DNA from: a virus
Virus record (IMG/VR): IMGVR_UViG_3300005613_000319
Coordinates: 1-28,992 of that record
Reading direction: 5' to 3' (one strand)
DNA: 28,992 nucleotides
Part shown: piece by piece, positions 4,312-14,367 of the stretch
Position numbering within the stretch: the first letter of the stretch is position 1
Layout: each line of letters opens with the position of its first letter
The notes under the pieces: model-generated
Database searches by the model: none
What the model was told of the DNA's origin: nothing
What the model saw: only the letters and a program-made list of their open reading frames with translations
Program-made: the position numbers and the translations under genes

Positions 4312-4395
4312 ACCTATTTACATTCCGGGACGCAGATGTTAATGTTCGCACATGTCTATTTTCATAGATTAGTTTTTCTCCAAAAAAACAAATAC

Positions 4396-4425
4396 AAGGG
4401 AGGCCGCAAGGCTTCCCTTTTTTTT
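4396..4425 (+). terminator. intrinsic terminator of the left array
   Basis: AAGGGAGGCC (4396-4405), loop GCAA, then GGCTTCCCTT (4410-4419) pair along ten positions with one G-U pair, followed by an eight-T tract (4418-4425). The GCAA loop is a stabilising GNRA tetraloop. It ends transcription of the 1-4286 operon. Confidence 0.9.
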
Positions 4426-4481: not shown

Positions 4482-4743
4482 GGTAGGTTGGAGAGTGAGC
4501 CTTATAAAATCCTTTGGATTCCATTATAAATCCTAGATTAAATTCGGGGACATGGAAAACATCAAGGTTAGGCTAAAAGTAAATGAGAACTAAACCACCA
4601 TGCACCAACCTACATGGGCAAGATCCTGAATGGCGGATCTAAATTCATAAGGCCGAATCTGTGAAGTCCAACTCATCAGCACCTAGAGTATGAGTATAAA
4701 TTTAGATTAGGTGTAGGTTGGTAGTCCTACACAAAAAACTACC
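4482..4743 (+). ncRNA. candidate structured leader or small RNA
   Basis: No convincing ORF is present, but perfect complementary segments are dense. They are 4483-4491 with 4605-4613 (GTAGGTTGG/CCAACCTAC), 4498-4502 with 4570-4574, 4508-4512 with 4516-4520, 4637-4645 with 4699-4707 (ATCTAAATT/AATTTAGAT), 4671-4676 with 4690-4695, 4711-4717 with 4726-4732 (GTGTAGG/CCTACAC) and 4720-4725 with 4738-4743. The last two together form an H-type pseudoknot with an A-rich linker. A second GTAGGTTGG at 4713-4721 could compete for 4605-4613, as could AGATCC 4621-4626 for 4635-4640. This looks like a switching leader of the gene at 4839 or a discrete small RNA. I matched it to no known class. Confidence 0.6.
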
Positions 4744-4745
4744 AC

Positions 4746-4809
4746 GTGAGTAGAATCTTTAGCATTCACCGAAGTATAATGGGTGGCATATTTTCTACTC
4801 ACACTTTTT
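4746..4809 (+). terminator. terminator or attenuator ahead of the 4839 gene
   Basis: GTGAGTAGAA (4746-4755) and TTCTACTCAC (4793-4802) form a perfect 10-bp stem around a 37-base loop, followed by A, C and five T (4805-4809). It lies between the structured RNA and the ribosome site at about 4829. It would therefore either end a small RNA or attenuate the downstream gene. The loop also contains TATAAT at 4775-4780, but no good -35 box stands 16-18 bases upstream of it. Confidence 0.6.
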
Positions 4810-4838
4810 AACTAACTATCAAAACCATAGGAGGATAT

Positions 4839-5138
4839 ATGATAGATTTAAACTTTAACCTAGACCGCACCTTTCCGCCCACACGCAAGGTTGCAACGCT
4901 AAGACGCGGCAACATTGAGTGCTATGACATCGGCGATCATTACATCTTCAACACCTATCTGGTGGATAAGATGGGAATCCCGGACACCAGGGCGCCCAAG
5001 CTTGGCCGAGCTATATCGGATCTGCATCACGCGGTTGCATACTGTGATGATGTTTACGCAGACAAGCTGTCAGCCATGACAGTTGGTGAGCTGCTCAACA
5101 TCTTCGGCGAAGCCGAGGAATTAAGGACTGGCTTTTAG
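4839..5138 (+). CDS. GC-rich orphan protein, unknown function
   Basis: A 99-residue soluble protein starting MIDLNFNLDRTFPPTRKVAT, with a strong SD, AGGAGG, before ATG 4839. Its base composition differs sharply from the neighbours: by hand, 4861-4920 is 57% GC, while 3961-4020 is 25%. It stands alone between two terminators and behind a long structured leader, so it is probably a separately regulated and perhaps recently acquired gene. A hairpin (5125-5133 with 5137-5145) overlaps the stop codon. No family recognised. Confidence 0.75.
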   Translation: MIDLNFNLDRTFPPTRKVATLRRGNIECYDIGDHYIFNTYLVDKMGIPDTRAPKLGRAISDLHHAVAYCDDVYADKLSAMTVGELLNIFGEAEELRTGF

Positions 5139-5154
5139 CCGGTCCCATCCACCG

Positions 5155-5181
5155 AAGCCCGGCTTAGTCCGGGTTTTTTTT
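5155..5181 (+). terminator. intrinsic terminator after the GC-rich gene
   Basis: CCCGG (5158-5162), loop CTTAGT, then CCGGG (5169-5173), extended by A-T and G-T pairs and followed by eight T (5174-5181). This closes the single-gene unit 4839-5138. Confidence 0.85.
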
Positions 5182-5203
5182 GTCCCGGAATCCGGGAGCT
5201 CTC

Positions 5204-5310
5204 ACGCGCTGGCACGCAAGTGCACGCACAAGGACGCAAAAACATGGCGCTAGAACGAACCAGGACGCAATAGGACGCAAAAGAAACAAAAGAGTACGCA
5301 AAAGGACGCA
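5204..5310 (+). repeat. helically phased 10-bp iteron-like array
   Basis: The core ACGCA, often within AGGACGCAAA, starts at 5214, 5224, 5234, 5265, 5275, 5296 and 5306, with related cores ACGCG at 5204 and ACGAA at 5255. Spacings are 10, 21 or 31 bases, so all copies lie on about the same face of the helix. No other feature occupies 5182-5413; ORFs on both strands over the array have no SD and look spurious. The array could be an iteron origin, an operator array or a site for a multimeric protein. Confidence 0.75.
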
Positions 5311-5413
5311 AAAATGTGGGGGTTCTCTCTGTAAGAGGGGGTTAATGCAAATAATCATATGTTTTCTAAAGTTTTTTTTATCGCTATTTATCAATCGATG
5401 TAGTAATTTGTTA

Positions 5414-5441
5414 TTGAATGTATGTTTAAAGGGTGTATAAT
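5414..5441 (+). promoter_or_regulatory. sigma70-like promoter of the 5468 operon
   Basis: TTGAAT (5414-5419) and TATAAT (5436-5441) are separated by 16 bases, and TG directly precedes the -10 box as in the promoter at 4448. The start would be near 5448, giving a leader of about 20 bases with AAAAGGAG before ATG 5468. Confidence 0.75.
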
Positions 5442-5467
5442 GTTTATATAAAAAGGAGAACGTTAAC

Positions 5468-5704
5468 ATGGATAAAAATAACATTGAAAACTTAAGAAGA
5501 ATAACTCTTCAAGAAATGGATAGATATAACCGCCATTATTTTGAACATGATCATGTCGAATTGATTTTTGTTTTTGATATGGAATGCTGGCTACATCTTG
5601 ATTTTAAAACTCATGAATTTAAATCTGGTGATCTAGATGACATGATTGAGTTGTTATCAGTTGAAGCCATGCTTGAATTTTGCGAAGAGGTATTTGCCGC
5701 ATGA
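5468..5704 (+). CDS. small acidic protein, unknown function
   Basis: A 78-residue protein starting MDKNNIENLRRITLQEMDRY, with HDHVELIFVFDMECWLHLDF in the middle. First gene of the second small-gene operon, behind a good promoter and the SD AAAAGGAG. The end overlaps the GP88-like gene as ATGA. No family recognised. Confidence 0.75.
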   Translation: MDKNNIENLRRITLQEMDRYNRHYFEHDHVELIFVFDMECWLHLDFKTHEFKSGDLDDMIELLSVEAMLEFCEEVFAA

Positions 5705-6330
5705 ATAAAATACAAGCAAAAGAAATCATTGGCGGAGATCTATCCGCCACAACTAAGATGCCATGCAAAAGTTTTAACTTACCCGCATGGGAATGCAAAA
5801 CCGGGAGCAAGCTTGCGAAGATTCCGGGAACTGTTTGCCATGGTTGTTATGCCATGAAAGGAAATTACACAAGATTCCCATCAGTTAAAAAAGCACAGTA
5901 TAAAAGACTTGATCAATTATTTAATCCAGCATGGGTTGATACCATGGTTTTTATGATTGAGAGAGAAAACAATCCATATTTTAGATGGCATGATGCGGGG
6001 GATATTCAAAGTGCCCAGCACTTAAAAAATATTTGTGATGTTGCACGCAAAACACCATCAATAACTCATTGGATACCAACAAGGGAACATAAGATTGTTA
6101 ATGACTTTGTGAATCAGGGCAACACCATTCCAAAGAATTTAATCATACGCATTAGCGCAACTAACATCGATGGCAAGCCACCCAAAAATGCAAGCCATAC
6201 ATCAACAGTTCATTCTAAAAGTGATGCTATCGGTTTTGAGTGCGTAGCACCTAAACAAGATGGCGCATGCTTAGATTGTAGGGCGTGCTGGAATCCCGGC
6301 ATAAAAAACATTTCATATAAACAACACTAG
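5701..6330 (+). CDS. GP88-family phage protein
   Basis: A 209-residue protein resembling, from memory, the mycobacteriophage Gene product 88 family, which is spread through many phages and whose biochemical role is unknown to me. Matching features are CKSFNLPAWEC (22-32), TVCHGCYAMKGNY (45-57), a helix with V..A...R, RWHDAGD (95-101) and HWIPTRE (123-129). It carries nine cysteines, including C46xxC49 and C190xxC193xxC196, so a metal or Fe-S site is likely (inference). The start at 5701 is fixed by the ATGA overlap; a longer frame from 5680 has no SD. It lies in an operon with the duplicated gene and XseB. Confidence 0.85.
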   Translation: MNKIQAKEIIGGDLSATTKMPCKSFNLPAWECKTGSKLAKIPGTVCHGCYAMKGNYTRFPSVKKAQYKRLDQLFNPAWVDTMVFMIERENNPYFRWHDAGDIQSAQHLKNICDVARKTPSITHWIPTREHKIVNDFVNQGNTIPKNLIIRISATNIDGKPPKNASHTSTVHSKSDAIGFECVAPKQDGACLDCRACWNPGIKNISYKQH

Positions 6331-6342
6331 GAGAAAAACAAT

Positions 6343-6468
6343 ATGAATATAACTGATAAAGAAATCGTTCAATACTATGGGCAAATATGGGGCAATGTTA
6401 AACATATGAAGTCATATATCAAAGAACTTAGAGATAGATATAAAAAAGAAATGGGGGTTAGTAAATGA
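6343..6468 (+). CDS. duplicated 41-residue basic protein, copy 2
   Basis: A 41-residue protein (MNITDKEIVQYYGQIWGNVK at the start), paralogous to 2281-2409 with 32 of 39 aligned residues identical and clear DNA-level similarity. The SD is TAGGAGAAAAACA. The stop overlaps the next ATG at 6465, as in copy 1. The substitutions are mostly conservative (R/K, E/D, F/Y), suggesting that both copies are under selection. Confidence 0.78.
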   Translation: MNITDKEIVQYYGQIWGNVKHMKSYIKELRDRYKKEMGVSK

Positions 6469-6659
6469 ATATCAATGATGACTTAGTCAAAGACTGGCTA
6501 GATAAATTTGACAGCAACAATGAAATAACTTTGTTGACTGAGATCGCAAACAATAACATATGCGTATCAGGAATGATTGACTCCATTCTTGCATACCATG
6601 TCGGAGAGGTTGAGATCGCAAAAGATTTTTACAAAAGAATGTGGAGATCGCAATCATGA
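6465..6659 (+). CDS. small protein, unknown function
   Basis: A 64-residue helical, slightly acidic protein starting MNINDDLVKDWLDKFDSNNE. It is coupled to the duplicated gene by an ATGA overlap with GGGGGTTAGTAA upstream. The end overlaps the next gene as ATGA. No family recognised. Confidence 0.7.
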   Translation: MNINDDLVKDWLDKFDSNNEITLLTEIANNNICVSGMIDSILAYHVGEVEIAKDFYKRMWRSQS

Positions 6660-6778
6660 GTAATCACAGAAACGAAATAATTCTTGAATCTTTATATCAA
6701 AAATATATAGACCTTGGATATGAGGACGCAGAGGCGCAAGAACTAGCGGCAAAAGAGTTTGAAGAAAATAGTAATTAG
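6656..6778 (+). CDS. small helical protein, unknown function
   Basis: A 40-residue ORF starting MSNHRNEIILESLYQKYIDL, followed by GYEDAEAQELAAKEFEE, which suggests two helices. The start is given by the ATGA overlap, with GTGGAGATCG as upstream ribosome site. Short helical proteins of this kind are common in phage early operons; function unknown. Confidence 0.65.
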   Translation: MSNHRNEIILESLYQKYIDLGYEDAEAQELAAKEFEENSN

Positions 6779-6811
6779 GTGTATATTAATTGTCGAGAGA
6801 TAGGAGAGACC

Positions 6812-7102
6812 ATGACTGAACACACGCACAAAGTAATCCGCCAGGATAAAATAAATAGGTTAGCCAAGTGGCGCAAAGGTATCAAGTACATACTAGGAGA
6901 AAAGAAAAGTGATGCTCCCGGAAGTGTGGTTGTACATCGCACAGTTTATAAAGATGACAGCGAAAAAATAGAATACCTTAGATCTAAAAAGAAAGACGAA
7001 TTCATACCCAGTCCATACACAGATGACGAACTCATTGACACAATGGAAAGGGAGAATCACGAGGGACACAGATTTTTATTTGGTAGGAGTGGCAAAATAT
7101 GA
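6812..7102 (+). CDS. basic small protein, unknown function
   Basis: A 96-residue Lys/Arg-rich protein starting MTEHTHKVIRQDKINRLAKW. ATG 6812 is preceded by TAGGAGAGACC; a GTG at 6779 in the same frame lacks an SD and is not used here. The C-terminus overlaps the next gene as ATGA. The basic middle (EYLRSKKKDEF) could bind nucleic acid, but no domain is recognised. Confidence 0.7.
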   Translation: MTEHTHKVIRQDKINRLAKWRKGIKYILGEKKSDAPGSVVVHRTVYKDDSEKIEYLRSKKKDEFIPSPYTDDELIDTMERENHEGHRFLFGRSGKI

Positions 7103-7392
7103 GCGAACTTCCACCAATAGAAGATAGAATGCCAGAATGTGAATGGGTATTGGTTATCAAGTATGGAGATCCATACACCAACACACCATTAACAACTGGC
7201 TTCGGTCCTTTCAAAACAAAAGAAGAAGCAGATGATTTCAGAGCGCAGTATTACTATGACCAAATTGTCATAGCAGATATTGTCCCAATCAATGCAGTCT
7301 TACCCCAAAGCGCAACTGAATTAGACATTGACTTTATTCCTGAAGGAAAGGTTGTTGATATCAGTAGCAAAATTAATCCACATAAACACTAG
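7099..7392 (+). CDS. conserved-looking small protein, unknown function
   Basis: A 97-residue soluble protein with EWVLVIKYGDPYTNTP near residues 15-30, then FGPFKTKEEADDFRAQYYY and a hydrophobic strand IVIADIVPINAVL. The strand, helix with KEEAD, then strand order recalls small domains that take up a sequence-processing or SPOR-like fold (weak inference). It is coupled to the previous gene by ATGA. Confidence 0.7.
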   Translation: MSELPPIEDRMPECEWVLVIKYGDPYTNTPLTTGFGPFKTKEEADDFRAQYYYDQIVIADIVPINAVLPQSATELDIDFIPEGKVVDISSKINPHKH

Positions 7393-7400
7393 GAGAAACC

Positions 7401-7619
7401 ATGGATTTTAAAATAGAAAAGAACATACCAGTTCGCACATTCAACTCACCTTTTTGTGAAGCTTTAGATCAATTAGAGATAGGCGATAGCATAGGTAATC
7501 TAACCAAAAAAGAAGTCTACAAGTACAGACCAAACTTCTATACGCCAACCTTTAGAGATCGCAAGTTCACATTCAAAAAAGAAAGTGGAAGTATGTATCG
7601 CATATGGAGGATAGCTTGA
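7401..7619 (+). CDS. small phage protein with EIGDS motif
   Basis: A 72-residue protein. IPVRTFNSPFCEALDQLEIG followed by DSI resembles a small phage family I remember with an N-terminal IP.....YP...ME.GDSF pattern and a basic C-terminus ending in an R.WR segment; family function is unknown. The SD is TAGGAGAAACC before ATG 7401. It ends in the ATGA-type overlap with the next gene. Confidence 0.72.
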   Translation: MDFKIEKNIPVRTFNSPFCEALDQLEIGDSIGNLTKKEVYKYRPNFYTPTFRDRKFTFKKESGSMYRIWRIA

Positions 7620-7747
7620 TGGACTTATCAGATATAAGTCTTGTTGAATTATCACAAACTCCAATAGAGCCAATCTTAAACGCAGCAATAGCTGTTGGAA
7701 TATTTATGTTGATTGCGCTAATCGTTATATGGAATTCAACAAGATGA
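7619..7747 (+). CDS. single-span membrane micro-protein
   Basis: A 42-residue ORF with one hydrophobic segment, ILNAAIAVGIFMLIALIVIW, at residues 19-38 and a short polar NSTR end. It would sit in the inner membrane. It is coupled to both neighbours by ATGA overlaps, with TGGAGGATAGC as SD. A holin-like, superinfection-exclusion or accessory membrane role is possible, but with one span and no other hallmark none can be chosen. Confidence 0.72.
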   Translation: MDLSDISLVELSQTPIEPILNAAIAVGIFMLIALIVIWNSTR

Positions 7748-8010
7748 ACAAGTGCATCGTTAAGGGAATGTTCTTTATGCAAGACGCAATACTCTTAGAA
7801 CAAGATGACTTGGTTAAAGAGTTTGAACGCAAAGTCAGAGACAAGAAAATATTCTTTGAAGTTATAAACCCTGGCGAAACTGAGTCTAAGGGTGTAGACA
7901 TTCAAGCCATGCTTGAAGAAAACAATAAACTAAAATCAGAACTACGCATCTTTAAAGATATTGTAGATCATAGCATCACAGCAGATGCGAGGAGAGGATT
8001 CGATGTCTAA
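7744..8010 (+). CDS. small coiled-coil protein, unknown function
   Basis: An 88-residue protein from ATG 7744, where the ATGA overlap fixes the start; an in-frame ATG at 7729 is less likely. The segment MLEENNKLKSELRIFKDIVD has heptad-like Leu/Ile spacing and probably forms a coiled coil. No family recognised. Confidence 0.7.
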   Translation: MNKCIVKGMFFMQDAILLEQDDLVKEFERKVRDKKIFFEVINPGETESKGVDIQAMLEENNKLKSELRIFKDIVDHSITADARRGFDV

Positions 8011-8137
8011 GACATGGGTTAAAGAAAAAATACAAAGCATCAAAAAGAAAACATCCATCGGTGATTCTAGATTAAGCAATGGGTCTGGCACTAACAAGCG
8101 CAAGACGCGTAAGAAATACCGGGGGCAAGGCAAATGA
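8003..8137 (+). CDS. small, very basic protein
   Basis: A 44-residue ORF starting MSKTWVKEKIQSIKKKTSIG and ending NKRKTRKKYRGQGK. The high Lys/Arg content suggests nucleic-acid binding (inference). GGAGAGGATTCG precedes ATG 8003 and the gene overlaps the previous one by 8 bases. Its own stop overlaps a tiny following frame. Confidence 0.68.
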   Translation: MSKTWVKEKIQSIKKKTSIGDSRLSNGSGTNKRKTRKKYRGQGK

Positions 8138-8208
8138 TTAACTATCCATGTGGCTGGTTCGATGTCGAGCAACTCCCTGGTGGTTCTGGCACTGAGTCAG
8201 AAGACTGA
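8134..8208 (+). CDS. possible 24-residue leader peptide ahead of xseB
   Basis: A 24-codon frame (MINYPCGWFDVEQLPGGSGT at its start) begins in an ATGA overlap with the previous gene and stops one base before the likely xseB ATG at 8210. xseB has no SD of its own, so translation through this frame followed by re-initiation could supply it. The peptide itself is not recognised. Confidence 0.35.
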   Translation: MINYPCGWFDVEQLPGGSGTESED

Positions 8209-8209
8209 T

Positions 8210-8485
8210 ATGAGTTTTGAGAAAGGACTCGCTGAACTTGAACGCATCGTTGCTAGGCTTGAGTCTAATGAAATAGATCTTGAGACAGCACTCGCAGACT
8301 TTGAGCAAGGCATGAAGATCCAACAATACTGCAAAAATAAATTAGACGAAGCTACTCTTCAAGTAAATCGTCTTCTTCAAGATGGGAAGCTGAAGCCTCT
8401 GAAAGATCTTCCTCATCATCAAGCAGCGCGTCCTCAACAATCTCTTGACCCAGATGATTCTCTAGACTTTTCTGATCTAGAATAA
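8210..8485 (+). CDS. xseB: exodeoxyribonuclease VII small subunit homologue
   Basis: A 91-residue protein. Residues 2-55 follow the XseB pattern closely: SFEKGLAELERIVARLESNE, then a helix DLETALADFEQGMKIQQYC and KKLDEA-like NKLDEATLQVNRLL. XseB normally binds several-fold to XseA to form ExoVII, which degrades single-stranded DNA in both directions. No XseA is in the window. Bacterial XseB is usually about 70-85 residues; here an extra Asp-rich tail (DPDDSLDFSDLE) lies over the 3-prime end of terS on the other strand. I place the start at ATG 8210 because the homology begins there; an upstream in-frame GTG 8150 and ATG 8162 also exist. Confidence 0.85.
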   Translation: MSFEKGLAELERIVARLESNEIDLETALADFEQGMKIQQYCKNKLDEATLQVNRLLQDGKLKPLKDLPHHQAARPQQSLDPDDSLDFSDLE

Positions 8486-11948: not shown

Positions 11949-12177
11949 AGATTCTCTCCACTTGTCCCATTAAATCTTCATGTGCATCGTGCAAAAATTT
12001 CCACTGCTCATTAAAGTTTTTATTTGTTTCTTTTGTTTTTGCAAGTTGTCTTTGCAGTCTTCTAATCGCTTTAACTAAATCAAGTTTCTTATCAGCAACC
12101 ACTGCAAGCTGATGTTTGACCATCAACTCCAAGACCTCCTCAATCGGATCTGTTATTGTCTCTAAGTTATCCATCAT
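11938..12177 (-). CDS. coiled-coil small protein, unknown function
   Basis: A 79-residue helical protein. ELMVKHQLAVVADKKLDLVK followed by AIRRLQRQLAKTKETNKNF shows heptad spacing, and the protein probably forms a coiled coil. ATG 12177 or 12174 (both in frame) overlaps the end of the primase-polymerase gene by about ten bases. An accessory factor for the replication protein is possible from position only. Confidence 0.68.
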   Translation of the reverse strand: MMDNLETITDPIEEVLELMVKHQLAVVADKKLDLVKAIRRLQRQLAKTKETNKNFNEQWKFLHDAHEDLMGQVERIYGV

Positions 12178-14113
12178 CTTCCCAAGGTTTTCTCATCTCG
12201 TTATCTGCTAAGTAATACCATGCGTTCTTACCTGGCACACTGTGAGTCTTGACTCTCTCTGCTAGATACTTCTGCACATGTGATACTGCGTACCTTGCGG
12301 CTCTCTCTCCTGAAGCCATGTCGCTTTCCTTCAATGCTTGTCTTGCTAGCAGTTCGAGTTCTTGTCTTGTATAAAACTTGCGCCTGTCCATTGCCGCGGC
12401 CACCACTCTCGCTATCTCTACTTCGTCTGGTGAATCTGATGCATCCACCACTCTAAAGAAGCCACGATCAAAATCAAAGTAGGCTAAGTGTTGATCTGGT
12501 TCTCTTGCGTTCCTTGCCTCGTAAAAGATATCGATGTTAGGTTTCTTACCAGACAGCTTGATACCAGAATCCATCCAACCAGCGAAGGCACTACCACCAC
12601 GCGCTGACATGAATGACAGATCATCTGCTCGTTCTTTACCAGTGTGATGAGCAATGATGACAGCAACACCAAAGAGTTCTATCAGCTTATCGACACGCGA
12701 TAACATCTCGTGGATCTCTGAGTTAGAGTTCTCTTCTCCACTAAAGAAGTTAATCACTGGATCGATCATGACAATATCAGGTTTGTGATAGTCAATACTT
12801 GTAGCTATTTCATCTATGTCTTTATCTCTCATGATGTTCTTTCTTAATCTTCCAGAAGCTATTAGGTTTGACTTACCAAGATCTAACATCTCTCTGTCAT
12901 GAATGAAAGGCTGATAGTACATGTCGATTCTTTTCTTTAAGAACTCATGAATGATCTCTGCTTGTAACCACATAACCTTTAAAGGTCTATTGAATTGTTT
13001 GCCCATAAACTCTGTGCCTGTTGTAGCGGCAGCAGCGAATGCACCCAACCAATGTGACTTACCAATCTTTGGTTTACCCAAGAGCAAGACTCTTGATTGT
13101 TCAAAGATAAATGCATCACCCCAAAACTGTTCGATGCGATCTGAGTCCATGCCATCCCAAAAAGGATCGCCAAATGTTTTGAGACCAAGTGGATCTCTTT
13201 CAGGTCTTTCTTTTTTCTTTTGCTGTTCGATAGGATCTTCTTGATCCATGATCTCTTTGAGTTCATCTGTTAGTTGTATCTGCCACTGACTTGTCTTCCA
13301 CTCTGTGATACCAGCTACATCGTCTGGGTTTCTTTTCAAGTGCCCAGTGCAAATACTGTTTACTGTTTGCAATACTTCTTGCACGCTCATGGGTGGGTTG
13401 TTTGTTTGATTCCAATCCAAAGCTTTGATGATGACTTCACGCATACCCCAACCTTCGAGAATCCACTTGCCTACCAATCTTGCAAGCGTATCGTTTCTCA
13501 TGCCACTGCCAACACCATCCATTGATAGCGGTGTTTTTAAGTCTGAGTTCGATCTGCCTACATTATTAAAGTCATAAATGATATTCATGTCTTGACTTGT
13601 AAGTATGGGCAAGTCATCCATGTCGCTTGGCCCAACACCGTCCACGCTTTCAAACATGTAATGGTCCGAAGGTGAGACCATGACATAGCCACCTTCTCCT
13701 CTGACATCAAGTCTGCCTGTGGTGTTTCTTATTTTTAGTTCAGGGTTGATAGCATAGAAATAATGATAGCCACCTCTTGGTGTTTTTTGTTTGAGTGTTG
13801 TTCTTGTGATCTGTCCTGATTCACAAAAGTCACAAGCTTCTTGTGTGTCTGCATCAAGCACCACAAAATTAATTCCTGTGACAGCTGCCCAATTACAATT
13901 TGGAAATTGTAAGTACCATTGTTTAATTTCTTTTAAGTGTGCTTGCTTTTGAATGTAGTCTGCCCACTTAACTCTTGGTGTCTTAGCCCAGCGCTTAACC
14001 AACACATCATCATCTTCATAAGGATGTCTTGTTTTAAAGTAATCTGGTATGACGTCTGTCTTAGATCCACAAGGTATTAAATGAAAGTTGTTCTCATAAA
14101 AAGAAACCAACAT
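12167..14113 (-). CDS. primase-polymerase/AAA helicase fusion
   Basis: A 648-residue replication protein. The N-terminal half is an archaeo-eukaryotic-type prim-pol domain, with VVLDADT (84-90, metal-binding Asp), RGGYHYFY (113-120) and RLDVRGEGGYVMVSPS (134-149). A PriCT-like helical domain (GSGMRNDTLARLVGKWILEG, 202-221) links to a RepA-like AAA ATPase, with Walker A GKPKIGKS (346-353), Walker B IVMIDP (447-452) and AHHTGK (488-493). A winged-helix-like end follows. It would unwind DNA and make primers at the phage origin. I chose ATG 14113. A frame extends to a TTG at 14209 overlapping the HTH gene, and AAGGAG near 14130 would suit a non-ATG start, so the start is uncertain. Confidence 0.9.
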   Translation of the reverse strand: MLVSFYENNFHLIPCGSKTDVIPDYFKTRHPYEDDDVLVKRWAKTPRVKWADYIQKQAHLKEIKQWYLQFPNCNWAAVTGINFVVLDADTQEACDFCESGQITRTTLKQKTPRGGYHYFYAINPELKIRNTTGRLDVRGEGGYVMVSPSDHYMFESVDGVGPSDMDDLPILTSQDMNIIYDFNNVGRSNSDLKTPLSMDGVGSGMRNDTLARLVGKWILEGWGMREVIIKALDWNQTNNPPMSVQEVLQTVNSICTGHLKRNPDDVAGITEWKTSQWQIQLTDELKEIMDQEDPIEQQKKKERPERDPLGLKTFGDPFWDGMDSDRIEQFWGDAFIFEQSRVLLLGKPKIGKSHWLGAFAAAATTGTEFMGKQFNRPLKVMWLQAEIIHEFLKKRIDMYYQPFIHDREMLDLGKSNLIASGRLRKNIMRDKDIDEIATSIDYHKPDIVMIDPVINFFSGEENSNSEIHEMLSRVDKLIELFGVAVIIAHHTGKERADDLSFMSARGGSAFAGWMDSGIKLSGKKPNIDIFYEARNAREPDQHLAYFDFDRGFFRVVDASDSPDEVEIARVVAAAMDRRKFYTRQELELLARQALKESDMASGERAARYAVSHVQKYLAERVKTHSVPGKNAWYYLADNEMRKPWEDDG

Positions 14114-14172
14114 TTCTTTTCTCTTGTTGCCAAGAATCTCTTCTCCTTTTTTATTTAAATGTAATTCCAAGA

Positions 14173-14367
14173 CTAACTCTCTTCTACTGCACCATAAATA
14201 CTTTCCCAATCAAGAGCATGCCCGGTCATCTTGATTAATTTCTTAGCCTGGTTTACAGAAGGCTGTCTTGTGTTGTATCTCCAAGACCTAATGGTGGACA
14301 CTGAGACCTTGAGTTCTTTTGCAAGACTCTCTTCTCCACGTTTTTCTATGTAATCTTTTAGTTCCAT
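14173..14367 (-). CDS. Cro/CI-like HTH regulator
   Basis: A 64-residue DNA-binding protein. ESLAKELKVSVSTIRSWRYN is a helix-turn-helix of the Cro/C1 type, followed by TRQPSVNQAKKLIKMTG as the supporting helices. It is the first gene of the leftward replication operon and faces the rightward operon at 14453, the classical place for a lytic switch regulator. CAAGGAGAGAA precedes ATG 14367. The inverted repeat at 14385-14445 is its likely operator (inference). Confidence 0.85.
   Translation of the reverse strand: MELKDYIEKRGEESLAKELKVSVSTIRSWRYNTRQPSVNQAKKLIKMTGHALDWESIYGAVEES

Follow-up and report, generated by a model that had tools for sequence, protein, structure and literature searches.

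Our analysis of a virus contig of 28,992 bases (hereafter the window, meaning this whole stretch of DNA) revealed a gene-free, helically phased block of CGCA-type boxes that is probably a protein-assembly site, at which replication starts or early genes are switched on. Origin-like features (a single copy, bent and AT-rich DNA, and a phage with a primase-polymerase [Prim-Pol] and helicase) coexist in this block with promoter-coupling features (a fixed spacing to the -10 element). We favor a promoter-coupled iteron-type origin over a purely transcriptional control region, and it is possible that one site serves both origin and transcription control. For abundant uncultured marine phages, hardly any origins or regulatory hubs have been mapped, and the module described here is a concrete cis-acting candidate in a phage family dependent on Prim-Pol/helicase.

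A helically phased array and its module

The array comprises seven exact ACGCA cores (at 5214, 5224, 5234, 5265, 5275, 5296, and 5306) and two near matches (ACGCG at 5204 and ACGAA at 5255); direct listing thereby confirmed the count that an earlier note on this DNA had given for positions 5204 to 5310. With the near matches included, the box-to-box steps are 10, 10, 10, 21, 10, 10, 21, and 10, i.e., 102 bp over 10 turns (10.2 bp per turn). The spacings of 10 and 21 bases claimed in that note stood, and its spacing of 31 results from passing over the near match at 5255, between 5234 and 5265. The phasing had also been called rare by chance, and consistently, 500 shuffles of the window reached at most 3 ACGCA per 97-bp span, versus 7 in the real array; TRF scored the array at period 10. 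Relative to the TTATC pair located downstream, the phase coherence of the window's boxes was 0.99, so the proposal that all boxes lie on one face of the helix held in the window, and in relatives only partly (0.24 to 0.96). As claimed, the array is situated between a terminator-like hairpin (5154-5177, with a T run) and a promoter-like site (TTGAAT-16-TATAAT at 5414-5441) and is free of genes, as the two mechanical ORFs that span it show no sign of being genes. Same-orientation direct repeats in noncoding DNA, as found in iteron origins, are present.

The array opens a module of ~250 bp, in which it is followed by a G-rich spacer, an AT-rich segment with TTATC-N5-TTATC, and a sigma70-type promoter. 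The features of the module and its flanks are as follows.

4839..5138, + strand: 99-aa ORF, an insertion left of the module in the window's lineage; absent in L004/L096
5154..5184, + strand: intrinsic terminator of the upstream gene, the module's left border; terminator-like hairpin with T run
5202..5313, + strand: array: nine CGCA-type boxes in helical phase at 10.2 bp per turn; unit consensus ~AGGWCGCAAAA
5312..5344, + strand: G-rich, C-poor spacer (13 G and 3 C per 33 nt); G-rich in most relatives
5345..5442, + strand: AT-rich (77% AT) low-stability segment, by composition and predicted stability
5346..5352, + strand: TGCAAAT block; present in many, not all, relatives
5378..5392, + strand: TTATC-N5-TTATC pair; beside the array in every collected module, having been a collection criterion
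5414..5441, + strand: sigma70-like promoter sequence, TTGAAT-16-TATAAT (10/12 match)
5468..5704, + strand: 78-aa ORF immediately 3' of the module; other genes take its place in relatives
5701..6330, + strand: GP88-family gene (PF17338), by family match

Conservation in related phages

A 20-base piece of the array matched five other viral contigs, and further contigs were found via the flanking ORF and the GP88-family gene. The module occurs in related marine phages, mostly uncultured, of approximately six lineages; its collection required a TTATC pair and at least three boxes, and modules without either stay hidden. All close-group contigs extending to the region carry the array, as do more distant relatives (L103/L005, L099, L104, L106, the L043 group, L058/L214, and G001/G002/L070/L080), in which it often precedes different genes, several of them joined just 3' of the ribosome-binding site. 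No such array was found upstream of more distant GP88 genes (~50% identity), and a scan of viral contigs for ACGCA triples yielded, among the matches listed, mostly unrelated contigs. In L004/L096, the 99-aa ORF is missing and the terminator directly adjoins the array; judged by this comparison, the ORF is an insertion. In several relatives, the array directly adjoins a different terminator. In G001, opposite-strand genes seem to have entered the array or its immediate surroundings and left secondary boxes behind; the same probably happened in G009 and G005.

The elements came in one order throughout: boxes, then the G-rich spacer, which is weak in L104, then the AT-rich segment bearing the TTATC pair, and last the promoter. 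More specifically, the last box is 72-73 bp from TTATC in most lineages, 81 bp in L066/L106, and 95 bp in the G001/G002 group (some members of the L043 group have an additional box 60 bp from TTATC), and TTATC is 58-61 bp from TATAAT in most relatives and 37 bp in L066/L106, with no TATAAT in the L058 and L214 modules. These exceptional spacings deviate by roughly one or two helical turns. Because the spacers between TTATC and the -10 element are mostly 30-50% identical between modules, their constant length is not simply a matter of recent copying. Measured from TTATC, the 67 boxes of ten modules show a periodicity of 10.3-10.4 bp with a coherence of 0.62, which none of 5000 random box placements matched, although the modules share ancestry and relatedness remains in this null. 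Per relative, phase coherence was 0.90-0.96 in some and 0.24-0.68 in others, L104 being among the weakly phased, and boxes of the G001/G002 group occur as ACGCA-N5-TCGCA pairs, mostly 15-18 bp apart, so that this subgroup retains the 10-bp pairing but lacks phasing across the whole array, which is therefore not general. Regarding loss of the phased array in relatives, which the earlier note had set against its own proposal, the array itself was never lost, whereas that subgroup is without whole-array phasing.

As a counterweight to the collection criteria, searches of 20 records bearing Prim-Pol with two independent patterns arrived at an identical set of 6. Each of these, among them contigs of 56.6 and 73.9 kb, has a single TTATC pair and a single main array locus; the total of 20 takes in contigs regardless of whether they extend to the region. 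CsrA-like GGA repeats were considered and rejected, as GGA is less conserved than CGCA, for which invariance is built in as the search core.

Predicted curvature, stability, and folding

In a wedge model, the strongest predicted curvature of the window fell in the 120-bp stretch 5289-5408, from the array end to the AT-rich part. Near the array, all nine tested sequences had curvature within the highest 0.12% of their 120-bp windows, in four of them the maximum, and nearest-neighbor prediction placed the AT-rich window of eight of the nine among approximately the 2% least stable. An adjoining AT-rich unwinding element, as in iteron origins, is present as far as predicted stability goes. As a single strand, the array was unusually unstructured (z +1.97; it folded worse than 197 of 200 shuffles), and a stem-loop origin of the pRN1 type at the array was therefore rejected. 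No Rfam family matched at the gathering threshold, and no tRNA was found. GC skew was uninformative about an origin because it tracks gene orientation, and inspection by eye found no convincing DnaA box, the TTATC pair matching only its first half.

Candidate binding proteins and known systems

Two adjoining genes on the opposite strand encode candidate readers of the array.

12167..14173, - strand: Prim-Pol / PriCT-1 / AAA_25 (RepA-like helicase) protein, by domain matches; candidate array reader
14173..14367, - strand: 64-aa HTH protein of the Cro/XRE type, whose gene overlaps that of Prim-Pol; second candidate array reader

The Prim-Pol protein probably starts later than its mechanical ORF. 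Its C-terminal end is highly conserved, with three predicted helices suggestive of a winged helix, in models of low confidence for this region (mean pLDDT 53) and of poor quality at full length (41.6). For related proteins, a role of the C-terminal WH domain in origin recognition has been proposed (PMC5862659). The HTH protein was found in 87 loci, overlapping records partly among them. A sequence search of solved structures gave nothing useful.

Plasmid iteron origins (RK2, P1, R6K, and others) resemble the module in having direct repeats in helix register beside an AT-rich element with short repeats, but their iterons measure 17-22 bp, whereas the array core has 5-8 bp at 10-bp steps, and no DnaA box was found in the module. 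The oriV of RSF1010 is laid out as iterons followed by a GC-rich and then an AT-rich stretch, an order resembling that of the module. RSF1010 also has a RepA-like helicase and an AEP-type primase (PMC4234260), which resemble the phage's domains; in contrast, no RepC homologue or ssi hairpins were found for the phage, in which primase and helicase form one protein. At the ori of phage P4, one primase-helicase (alpha protein) acts, and its winged helix reads short repeats (PMC4234260), but its primase and helicase are of other types and its repeats differ in sequence, and array binding by the protein studied here is a candidate function. The plasmid pRN1, with ORF904, likewise has a small DNA-binding protein gene beside the Prim-Pol-helicase gene, i.e., a small repressor gene paired with the replication-protein gene (PMC4234260), but it carries a large stem-loop, unlike the phage array, which is less structured than shuffles. 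CRP-810-type phages (PMC11288001) share gene blocks, Prim-Pol plus AAA_25, a small gene upstream of the Prim-Pol gene, GNAT, and recombination genes, although their Prim-Pol is only ~24% identical to the phage's; the first 50 kb of CRP-810, a distant cultured relative, contain no such array and no TTATC pair.

A one-strand tract of the array motif

The motif of the array recurs downstream of it, dispersed over several genes.

5460..8352, + strand only: dispersed CGCA-motif tract; 26 observed versus 4.8 expected, with the peak in the half nearest the terminase gene

In every contig tested, GNWCGCAA was ~3.5-7-fold enriched on a single strand over the 1.5-5.5 kb from the array to the terminase small-subunit gene. 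The tract lies on the + strand and runs to this convergent gene, also inside coding sequence. Under a null of synonymous codons with genome codon usage, observed/expected counts were 26/4.8 in the window, 19/3.5 in G001, 18/4.3 in G002, 14/3.6 in G005, 20/4.7 in G007, and 9/2.3 in G009, and the excess persisted, more weakly, under permutation of the zone's own codons. The reverse-complement motif was not clearly enriched in the tract (largest value 8/4.0, in the window). Twelve later-tested contigs gave 9-34 observed versus 1.5-6.6 expected; among them, two (L043 and L058) duplicate the records G009 and G005, and several others are close to the window, leaving about six independent lineages. 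CGCA is the most over-represented of the 256 tetramers in the tract (z 17.3), and its flanks there (G at -3, A/T at -1, A after) agree with the array unit. Other regions of the window were without comparable enrichment, and the motif is scarce left of the array (observed/expected 0/4.1 in the window and 1/4.3 in G001/G002). The excess peaks in the genes adjoining the terminase gene, within borders that were set after the pattern was seen and with crude ORF calling. The terminase gene has a mild excess on the same genome strand (21 versus 11.7), Dcm and Prim-Pol have a mild one on the opposite strand, and no genome-wide polarity switch of the motif was seen.

Readings of the tract as arising from the sense-strand mRNA or from the DNA strand both stand. 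It is possible, if rather doubtful, that the array forms the densely packed head of a strand-polar GNWCGCAA system that would orient a phage machine along the tract from array to terminase, candidates being the primase-helicase, another translocase, or a nuclease. Such a system would be akin to Chi, KOPS, or primase recognition sites, but is here confined to one tract of a few kilobases. A one-strand tract within genes that shares the array's motif is new here, unexpected in a phage, and directly testable.

Origin or control region

We tentatively read the array as the protein-loading part of a single-copy, iteron-type phage replication origin that contains a promoter, and give this reading somewhat less than an even chance. 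It is supported because the module persists despite gene replacement and insertion in its interior and on either flank; because there is one module per record in 6 of 20 records, long contigs included; because array, G-rich spacer, and AT-rich segment keep a fixed order; because predicted curvature is extreme and the AT-rich window is of low stability; and because the phages encode Prim-Pol, PriCT-1, and a RepA-like ATPase with a conserved helical C-terminal region. A phage protein, with Prim-Pol/helicase and the small HTH protein as candidates, would occupy the GNWCGCAA boxes in a head-to-tail row along one helix face, wrap the DNA or sharpen its intrinsic bend, and open the adjoining AT-rich segment; transcription from the built-in promoter would assist, and Prim-Pol/helicase would load at the opened module. 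What the sequences show is the module's anatomy and conservation, its single copy in the longest contigs, and a predicted bend and low stability; from these we infer that replication starts at the module, which protein binds, in what order the steps follow, and how transcription takes part. The cooperative multi-site binding proposed in the earlier note gained support from conservation, 10-bp spacing, and register with downstream elements, while both options that it named, iteron origin and multi-site operator, are plausible. For plasmid Rep proteins, separating iterons by half a turn abolishes cooperativity (PMC4980987). Against an origin, AT-rich curved DNA is also common at promoters, the constant 58-61 bp between TTATC and -10 across diverged spacers points to transcription, and a simple iteron origin would not account for the motifs scattered downstream.

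A plausible alternative, to which we give somewhat lower confidence, is an enhancer-like control region of the early/middle operon promoter that has no replication role, in which a regulator may bind the TTATC direct repeat at approximately -63 (approximately -42 in L066/L106) and the phased array upstream could add cooperative binding and bend the DNA toward RNA polymerase. An activator-like site does stand at a fixed helical distance from the -10 element, mostly 58-61 bp and two turns less (37 bp) in L066/L106, and these distances agree with class I and class II activator positions; their length is kept even though the spacers have mostly diverged to 30-50% identity. The distance from last box to TTATC (72-73 bp mostly, 81 in L066/L106, and 95 in one subgroup) and the retention of promoter and ribosome-binding site before differing genes likewise suit transcriptional control. 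Yet there is a single module per long contig, the secondary arrays in G009 and G001 abut terminators of inserted genes without the promoter part, and the HTH protein's own promoter in the window has no array. It is unlikely that the region is a terminase recognition (pac) or Chi-like site whose motif marks DNA for packaging or cut-end handling: the one-strand tract peaks in genes adjoining the terminase small-subunit gene, and its motif orientation would suit a nuclease entering from the terminase side, but 1.5-6 kb and many genes separate the main array from it, and the array keeps a register with the promoter that packaging does not need. Neutral, functionless slippage of tandem repeats is highly improbable; copy number does differ among relatives by 10-bp steps, but position and register are kept across lineages despite diverged spacers, the observed phase coherence arose in none of the 5000 random placements (with relatedness remaining in that null), and the same motif is enriched in coding DNA.

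Additional observations

The gene order of G002 (56,596 bases) seems continuous across its ends (Dcm-like to terminase gene), with no end overlap found, and this contig may be a complete, circularly permuted genome. L305, a contig binned as Neomarinimicrobiota, contains the replication block of these phages, with 65% Prim-Pol identity, which could be due to either host or misbinning. Adjoining the terminase small-subunit gene, positions 8162-8485 encode a small protein that resembles the exonuclease VII small subunit (XseB) by eye and has a weak phrog exonuclease match. A noncoding stretch of 339 nt at 4482-4820, located 3' of a TATAAT that resembles a promoter, has a more stable predicted fold than its shuffles (z -3.42) and is a candidate structured RNA; a piece of it, GGATCTAAATTCATAAGGCCG, recurs before the arrays in L271/L274. 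Finally, a conserved element at 4330-4420, consisting of CGCA boxes, a TCTAT/ATAGA hairpin, CTCCAAAA, and a terminator, is also present in L099, L104, G009, G005, and, in part, G002.
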